Source: Elusimicrobiota bacterium (GTDB lineage: Bacteria > Elusimicrobiota > Elusimicrobia > Elusimicrobiales > Elusimicrobiaceae). Taken from it: 37,178 nucleotides of DNA. Location: positions 1 to 37,178 of the forward strand of contig JAQXJI010000011.1 of the NCBI GenBank assembly GCA_029008615.1, given 5' to 3'. Under the pieces are notes generated by a model that searched no databases, had not been told where the DNA came from, and saw only the letters and a program-made list of their open reading frames with translations. A program made the translations under genes and the position numbers. Below, in pieces: positions 2,369-3,763 of this stretch; within the stretch, counting starts at the first letter, position 1, and each line of letters begins with the position of its first letter.

Positions 2369-3763
2369 TTATTTTGCTTTTGACTCTGAACACCACGTTT
2401 TCCAAGGTACGGCAAGCCCGCTGCTTTTATACTTCTCCCAACATCTGGAGTGAACGTCAACGGTACATTTACCGTAAGGATATTCATACTTAACGAACTG
2501 ACCGTTTGCCGTTATTTTTCTTCTCGGCGTACTTATCCTTTTTAAACTCTCATTGGCAAGGTGTTTGTGGCATATCGGACAATATCCTACGGATTCAAGA
2601 CGCTTGTTATAATCCATTTCTCTTTGCACGGCGGCTTTAACGGCTTCCGCTTTGGCGCGGGCTTCCTCTGCTTCTGCTTTTGCCGCGTCCGCCTTTTCCT
2701 GTTCAATTTTAGCCTGCCTTTGCGCTTTTATACGCTTTATATGGGAAGGAATCTCCCCCTCATAACCGTTTGCCGCATAGTTTAACTGCGCCTGATGTTC
2801 CTCCCGACTGACTTTACTAGGCAAAGCCTCCATATAAATGACGTCGCGGCGGCACAAAGAAGCCCAGCCAACCGTTCTGCGATTTGAGGACGCGTCTTTG
2901 GAATAAAAATCAATCAAATTTATAATGCCTTCGGCGTCATCGCAGGTTACAAGGTGTTTTTCCCCTCTTTCAATCCGCTGCATTGCAGATTTTATTCCCG
3001 CAAGAGAAGTAATCCCGCTTAAAGTATAAATCGGGTCGCCGTTTTCTTCGTGTCCCAAATACTGGTCCCCCAAACCCAATACATGGCCGAATTCATGTAG
3101 CAAAGTCGGTTTAAAAAGAATATTATAGGCATTGGTTTGCACGTCATAATCCGTAAAATCATTATGCTTTTGCGCATAAATATTTATCCAGTTTTCATCT
3201 ATATAATCTGGATGGAAAAATATCATTATATGTTTGCGCACCGAGCCGCCGGCATAAGCCGCGTGCCCGTTACGTACGGCTATAAAAGATTTTGCTTCGT
3301 CGTTAGTTTCCGCCATAAGCCGTAAATCAAAAGACGTATTATCTTCAGGGAATTCATCGCAATTTTTGGCGGAAGAACCGTAATTTACATAGGTAATTTG
3401 AGGAGAACTTAAATAAGACATTAAATCTTTAAACTCATTTGCCCTGCCGGATTTTTCTATATTGAGTTTAACATTGTTTATCCATTCGGCGTAAACTCTG
3501 TTCATAATATCGGCGACTTGTCTGTAATAACTATCCCGTTTCCGCCCGGAAGGCATATAAGATTTTTTTAACTTGCGTGATGAAGAATCATAAGAGGTTT
3601 CAATAAAATCAATGCAAATACGAATCGGCTTATCTTGCATAGTATTGTATATCAAATAAGGAGAGGCTTCCTCTCGCGGATTTGCCACACCTTTAAAAAA
3701 AACCCAAGCGTTCAAAGGCAAAACAAATGCCGACAACAACAAAATAAATAGTATTTTCTTCAT
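2369..3763 (-). CDS. Secreted metzincin-like zinc metallopeptidase with C-terminal Cys/His tail
   Basis: Probable exported endopeptidase of unknown substrate, 464 residues. A signal peptide is visible (MKKILF, then a hydrophobic run to about residue 19). The zinc site is HEFGH (H223, E224, H227) followed by G230 and D233, that is HExxHxxGxxD. This metzincin-type pattern has Asp where most metzincins have the third His; the snapalysin (M7) family is a known precedent. A possible Met-turn is SAMQ at 259-262. A charged Ala/Lys/Glu helix (about 345-385) leads to a Cys/His-rich end (C395, C398, H399, H401, C433, H438, C441, C458) that may bind a second metal. The ATG is preceded by AAGGAAAAATA. 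It stands alone between two terminators and appears more AT-rich than its neighbours. The protease fold is inferred from the motif; I do not recognise a named family. Confidence 0.72.
   Translation of the reverse strand: MKKILFILLLSAFVLPLNAWVFFKGVANPREEASPYLIYNTMQDKPIRICIDFIETSYDSSSRKLKKSYMPSGRKRDSYYRQVADIMNRVYAEWINNVKLNIEKSGRANEFKDLMSYLSSPQITYVNYGSSAKNCDEFPEDNTSFDLRLMAETNDEAKSFIAVRNGHAAYAGGSVRKHIMIFFHPDYIDENWINIYAQKHNDFTDYDVQTNAYNILFKPTLLHEFGHVLGLGDQYLGHEENGDPIYTLSGITSLAGIKSAMQRIERGEKHLVTCDDAEGIINLIDFYSKDASSNRRTVGWASLCRRDVIYMEALPSKVSREEHQAQLNYAANGYEGEIPSHIKRIKAQRQAKIEQEKADAAKAEAEEARAKAEAVKAAVQREMDYNKRLESVGYCPICHKHLANESLKRISTPRRKITANGQFVKYEYPYGKCTVDVHSRCWEKYKSSGLAVPWKTWCSESKAK

Follow-up and report, generated by a model that had tools for sequence, protein, structure and literature searches.

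Igalysins are described as Asp-type metzincins with the zinc motif HExxHxxxGxxD, in which an extra residue precedes the Gly; in the same source, Asp is given as the third zinc ligand of thuringilysin, and the IgAse of a gut bacterium is predicted to carry separate accessory zinc-binding domains (PMC12237041). The mini-zincin Acel_2062 displays, according to its abstract, the motif HEXXHXXGXXD and was termed an Asp-zincin (PMC3890501). In this work, we characterized a protein with an HExxHxxGxxD motif encoded in a stretch of 37,178 nucleotides (hereafter the window), which constitutes an entire contig (JAQXJI010000011.1) of a 1.66 Mb genome from the Elusimicrobiaceae (Elusimicrobiota). This family comprises little-studied gut bacteria, from which, to our knowledge, no secreted effector has been characterized; in the portions of the literature reached by our search, no description of the protease family presented here was found.

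The features of the gene are collected in Table 1. The residues H223, E224, H227, G230 and D233 were found at the positions named in the original prediction, as was every member of the C-terminal set listed there (C395, C398, H399, H401, C433, H438, C441 and C458). Judging by translation, the upstream neighbour is presumably gpmI, and we take the downstream neighbours to be the rpsF-ssb-rpsR-rplI group. The gene had been described as standing alone between terminators, which is compatible with the sequence, a hairpin followed by a T-run flanking it on both sides; terminator-like sites in the scanned stretch were in slight excess (14 versus a shuffle mean of 9.6, sd 3.2). Its supposedly distinct composition was not supported, with a GC content of 41.5% versus 44.4% for the window and 32-53% across the other ORFs compared. 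A horizontal gain judged by composition is likewise unsupported. Elsewhere in the window, positions 12998-18520 (-) are occupied by a single ORF of 1840 aa, and positions 36465-36938 encode a type IV pilin-like protein with a prepilin-like N-terminus, similar proteins being present in L044 and L090.

Table 1. Coordinates of the protease gene, its predicted protein features and its flanking sites in the window.
Feature	Position	Strand	Basis
Exported Asp-type metzincin (predicted) with C-terminal single-zinc module	2369..3763	-	464 aa, ATG start
Putative signal peptide, about residues 1-19	3707..3763	-	sequence
Metzincin catalytic region (predicted), about residues 20-324 (limits approximate)	2792..3706	-	AF2 model, VIA-align
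Zinc motif HEFGHVLGLGD, residues 223-233	3065..3097	-	sequence
Met-turn candidate M261	2981..2983	-	M in 81/83 A3 rows; sequence level
C274, inferred disulfide partner of C304	2942..2944	-	covariation
Long charged helix, residues 340-392 (53 residues)	2588..2746	-	AF2 model
Putative single-zinc module (C395, C398, H438, C441) and tail, residues 391-464	2372..2593	-	A4, model
Terminator-like hairpin and T-run after the protease stop	about 2339..2364	-	sequence; pattern scan match 2356-2344
Hairpin and T-run resembling a terminator, following the upstream gene	about 3869..3903	-	sequence; absent from pattern scan

Profile A1, built for this family, matched 103 ORFs, from which two were excluded for containing an X and 101 were counted as relatives. 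The third-ligand position in these relatives and the window protein was occupied by D in 94, E in 2 and S in 1, with no readable motif in 5; since D is kept in 94 of the 102 members, the zinc motif of the window protein is, at the level of sequence conservation, not a product of chance. The best matches in a PDB profile search were a serralysin-type protease C (E 1.2e-6) and snapalysin (1c7k/4hx3, E 1.9e-6), and snapalysin was also matched by profile A1 against the PDB (E 2.1e-5). In the profile alignments, D233 lies opposite the third His of protease C and is aligned onto the Asp of snapalysin, in agreement with the earlier proposal of a snapalysin-like third ligand. An AF2 model of the full protein (mean pLDDT 87.6, pTM 0.80) contains, among others, a helix at residues 217-229, the putative active-site helix holding both H223 and H227, and a second one at 274-287, corresponding to the C-terminal helix of the domain; together with the alignment of D233, the placement of both His residues in one model helix is consistent with the predicted convergence of the three ligands on one site.

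The top VIA-align match for the model was MMP-7 over model residues 19-288 (146 aligned, rmsd 3.5), with a Z of 8.9 that barely exceeds the level which the tool terms common, followed by karilysin (Z 8.8, rmsd 4.1, 154 aligned) and, lower, by myroilysin (Z 8.0), astacin (Z 7.9) and serralysin 1sat (Z 7.6). The best 31 rows were matrixins, karilysin, myroilysin and astacin, with Z of 7.9-8.9, and the best 50 included no snapalysin and no igalysin chain, a result not counted against either. Foldseek with the full model retrieved nothing at E 0.001 or better, its best match having an E of 8.9e-3. The features that define the metzincin clan, namely the zinc motif, the Met-turn Met (in the sequence) and the sheet/helix fold (in the model), were all found. 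Taking the zinc motif, the Met-turn candidate, the C-terminal helix, and the profile and fold matches together, the domain is, as predicted from sequence and model, an Asp-type metzincin. In line with the statement that it matches no recognised family, the window protein passed no curated cut-off in Pfam, NCBIfam or PADLOC. A PF05547 scan of the genome containing the window gave zero matches and is uninformative, since its controls likewise gave zero; PHROGs returned two weak matches, both inside residues 316-378, which are mostly helix.

The C-terminal portion of the protein comprises the charged helix that had been anticipated before the Cys/His tail, and which the model places at residues 340-392, followed by a small Cys/His unit. 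C395, C398, H438 and C441 were the sole invariant columns in the tail alignment A4 (17 rows), and they constitute a likely four-ligand zinc site, metal binding being deduced from their conservation. Thus, the eight-residue Cys/His set first proposed was reduced to these four; C433, C458, H399 and H401 fell outside it, and of the 13 rows that carry a tail only the window protein has the two His residues. Within the family, the module follows the pattern C-x2-C-x(20-44)-H-x2-C, with a spacer of 39 in the window protein. A model of the isolated module (mean pLDDT 88.7) predicts a small unit made up of strands plus two helices. Foldseek found nothing for the isolated tail (best E 1.6), the best VIA-align match was the RNF165 RING, which is weak (Z 4.0, rmsd 2.5, 43 aligned), and the best PDB profile match of the module was the Vps39 finger (6ze9), also weak at E 0.0027; these resemblances say nothing firm on the function of the module. 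RING fingers have two interleaved zinc sites, and a LIM domain consists of a first zinc module, C-x2-C-x(16-23)-H-x2-C, with a second module directly after. A RING finger was rejected, as only one conserved site is present, the second being missing, and the fold match is weak; a LIM domain was also discarded, as A4 contains no further set of conserved Cys/His residues.

The module was detected in 30 of 90 Elusimicrobiaceae genomes at E 0.001, a slightly generous count in which at least one weak tail match (L145) looks like chance. In a tree of 100 of the 102 rows, its distribution needs three changes, which may correspond to one gain and two losses; all 16 module-bearing rows fall within a supported 24-row set (96/89). 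The module is also present after long linkers on His-type metzincins of the same bacterial family, namely L136 (HELGHVLGLTH), L138 (HEVGHLFGLVH) and L139 (HEFGHLFGLVH), all three with Peptidase_M10 above cut-off, and a weaker form occurs on L143, L144 and L146, in which no protease domain was recognised. On L139, DUF2175 (PF09943) gave an E of 1.6e-4 and 22.3 of 25.1 bits, below the curated cut-off. Separately, some long family members (805-1131 aa) display CxxC...HxxC modules, namely L060:5758-9150, L061:5617-8130, with two modules, and L079:6001-8415.

Regarding export, the window protein appears to start with a Sec-type signal, with putative cleavage before W20. Of the 100 Met-starting family members, 99 match a home-made pattern for signal-like N-termini, a count that is affected by the choice of start codons through a rule favouring signal-like starts. 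The predicted secretion is upheld in the form of a metalloprotease-like protein with a signal-like N-terminus, which we read as exported. For the analysis of cysteines, alignment A3 included 83 of 94 references (the window protein among them) left after removing 8 ORFs whose CDD motif could not be read; in A3, from which several degenerate or fragmentary members were left out so that its counts are kinder than those over 102 members, C274 and C304 were both present in 75 rows and both absent in 8, C50 and C135 were concordant in 77, and C433 and C458 co-occurred in 4, neither being found in any other row. The pairs 274/304, 50/135 and 433/458 would be compatible with three disulfides in an exported protein, and the disulfide-like covariation of the first two is what is expected outside the cytoplasm.

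With the window protein alone as query, 23 of the 60 near genomes gave a match, and the family profile matched 81 of the 340 genomes searched from the phylum, comprising 78 of 90 from Elusimicrobiaceae and 3 of 250 from other Elusimicrobiota. The latter three were set aside as other metzincins, the match being confined to the active-site region (47-51 profile positions). Up to 4 candidates per genome were scored in this search, hence both copy numbers and absences derived from it are rough. A scan of 84,980 species, with one genome per species, identified 107 relatives and kept 79 loci, using two short motifs plus tblastn with the window protein, by which distant relatives may escape; 70 of these loci were titled Elusimicrobia in some form and 9 only "uncultured bacterium". 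A single-protein scan of the genome-contig collection detected no relatives, and the alignment-based scan did recover them. Tblastn against phages and against plasmids gave no match at E 0.01, so that carriage on known mobile elements is unsupported. The genome containing the window has seven places with family members, and side-by-side copies were observed in L064 (6), L059 (4) and L057 (4).

With 8 of the 102 members showing either another residue in place of the ligand D or no readable motif, part of the family may lack peptidase activity. In L040 and L041, RQTGY replaces HExxH, and in L039, S replaces D; these three proteins (L039:6001-7056, L040:1993-3051 and L041:6001-7017) form a clade in which the zinc module is missing and the zinc site altered, and are possible pseudoenzymes. 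Some of the relatives with an altered active site remain open reading frames. As a separate observation, L211 (G018:C1:1158051-1158503, in a single-contig genome) is a portion of a second family copy with five in-frame stops, and looks decayed or frameshifted.

The protease locus is syntenic with the window in G001 (L031) and G008 (L032), which represent two species under the one-genome-per-species rule of the collection. Among 93 reciprocal-best pairs on the compared contigs of this species pair, with dS defined for 89, the L031/L032 protease displayed the lowest dS (0.0069), the next being 0.104 and the median 0.674. A near-identical tract with seven mismatches extends from about 5,710 to 7,860 of L031, and outside it the identity of 150-column windows ranges from 69% to 97%, climbing toward the tract. 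As the tract is internal to its contigs (151 and 316 kb), an assembly error is a less likely source of it. The window and L031 proteases are 48% identical, the lowest value of ten syntenic genes, versus 57-99% for the others.

Other species pairs were compared over short flanks. Bearing in mind that NG86 dS values above about 1 are near saturation, the L089/L093 protease has a dS of 0.019 versus 2.4 and 1.8 for the next two genes (two more being undefined), and the reverse was observed in L036/L038 (protease 2.1 versus 0.14-0.51 in five neighbouring genes) and L090/L092 (1.07 versus 0.19-0.47 in seven). Altogether, the contrast was clear in 5 of 20 pairs, namely L031/L032, L089/L093, L036/L038, L090/L092 and L038/L043, the last sharing a side with L036. 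L040/L041 gave no contrast (protease 0.62, neighbours 0.43-0.62), and in L034/L037 and L035/L045 several neighbours, for the most part small proteins that begin with a signal-like sequence, have diverged to about the same extent as the protease. Such small proteins were noted beside a module-bearing protease in L034:3917-9231 and L037:5396-10755, with similarly fast divergence. Since dN was below dS in all pairs with defined dS among the 20 compared, strict diversifying selection is unsupported. For the clear pairs, sequence divergence suggests, as the simplest reading, the exchange of whole alleles between species at fixed loci, which could also reflect phage or grazer pressure.

Integrating these findings, we propose, with a probability of roughly 0.6, that the window protein is a secreted zinc endopeptidase acting at an antagonistic or host interface, positioned by its zinc module, and with a variable target that drives allele turnover; its identification as a metzincin that is exported and keeps its active site intact we hold more strongly than this reading as a whole. 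The computed basis comprises the family, the signal-like N-terminus, the zinc motif, the fold class, the module and the dS contrasts, from which we infer catalysis, a location outside the cell, zinc binding and an aiming role for the module, and the variability of the target. As an active peptidase, the protein would bind zinc through H223, H227 and D233, with E224 as the base and M261 as the conserved Met. The long helix would keep the zinc module and the catalytic domain apart, and the module, which is found on other exported proteins too, would serve to position the enzyme, whether on a substrate, on a partner or on a surface. The substrate would be extracellular and variable, probably a protein from the host mucosa, the diet or a competitor, and its variation would drive the turnover of alleles. 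The host-interaction role that had been suggested receives indirect support from the pattern of allele exchange, which would fit a competitor-facing role equally, whereas the alternative suggestion of a defence role is unsupported (0 PADLOC families at E 0.1). As a broader and more tentative possibility, on which we lean toward doubt, the multicopy secreted Asp-metzincins may constitute a lineage-specific arsenal of gut Elusimicrobiaceae, with fixed chromosomal loci as sites of allele exchange and a module for a shared target: conserved flanks would recombine between species, swapping whole divergent alleles as in polymorphic surface antigens, and the mobile single-zinc module would aim these and other exported proteins at that target.

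The same observations were weighed against simpler or different roles. An ordinary nutritional protease, secreted to obtain amino acids from mucosal or dietary protein, in which the module is a structural cap and no arms race is involved, would agree with the gut or rumen origin in several family contig titles, the several paralogs in the genome of the window, the common use of the metzincin fold by general secreted proteases and a dN below dS; we regard it as unlikely, though deserving serious attention, as in our judgement neither an interspecies replacement (dS of 0.007 versus a median of 0.67) nor a saturated protease dS between flanks of 0.14-0.51 is expected of a digestive enzyme, and some relatives without the active site persist as open reading frames. 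These altered relatives (L039, L040 and L041), together with the adjacent copies (4 in L059, 6 in L064 and 4 in L057) and allele exchange, would suit an interbacterial weapon or decoy system, in which a released metzincin cleaves surface proteins of related strains and dead copies compete or protect. However, the neighbours of the window gene resemble gpmI and ribosomal-protein genes rather than toxin or immunity genes, and there was no PADLOC match, which makes this role improbable. It is very improbable that the protein is a binding protein retaining the metzincin fold as a scaffold: 5 of 102 members without a readable motif and the three-member clade L039-L041, with its altered zinc site and no module, speak for it, but in the window protein every ligand is retained, as are the catalytic Glu and the Met of the Met-turn, and Asp is kept in 94 of 102 members. 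The concentration of a large, uncurated family of proteases in the Elusimicrobiaceae, together with the signs of allele exchange between species, provides concrete genes for probing the effects of these bacteria on host, diet or competitors.

Compared with known systems, the window protein would work like an Asp-type metzincin but is assigned to none of the snapalysins, thuringilysins or igalysins, since it misses the cut-offs of the first two and the motif spacing of the third. With snapalysin (MEROPS M7; 1c7k, 4hx3) it shares HExxHxxGxxD, the Asp third ligand and a Tyr two residues further; however, the window protein is far longer, as originally stated (464 residues versus snapalysin chains of 132-134), its catalytic region alone taking about 270-300 residues, to which the helix and zinc module are added, and it gave no match to PF02031 at E 1 and 9.6 bits to NF033628 versus a cut-off of 300. 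Thuringilysins belong to M6, and like thuringilysin and immune inhibitor A the window protein would use Asp as third ligand; the M6 domain TIGR03296 was its best NCBIfam match (E 5.4e-5), although with 23.2 bits versus a cut-off of 110.8, and the M6 Pfam PF05547 reached 11.9 bits versus 22. The igalysins (M64; 4df9, 3p1v) resemble it in the Asp ligand, and the IgAse of a gut bacterium also in its predicted accessory zinc-binding domains, with a weak profile match to 4df9 (E 0.0055), but the window protein has two residues between H227 and G230. Serralysins, matrixins and karilysin (M10) share the fold (VIA-align) and a profile match, yet they carry a third His where the window protein has Asp, and its M10 score was below cut-off (12.6 of 24 bits). 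The mini-zincin Acel_2062 is described with the same HEXXHXXGXXD motif. As for the module, the first LIM half also shows C-x2-C ... H-x2-C, as do the one-zinc Vps39 finger (6ze9) and DUF2175 (PF09943), with matches weak or below cut-off; unlike these three, the module of this family is located on a presumably exported protein. Taken together, the family would add another Asp-ligand metzincin group beside the snapalysins, thuringilysins and igalysins.
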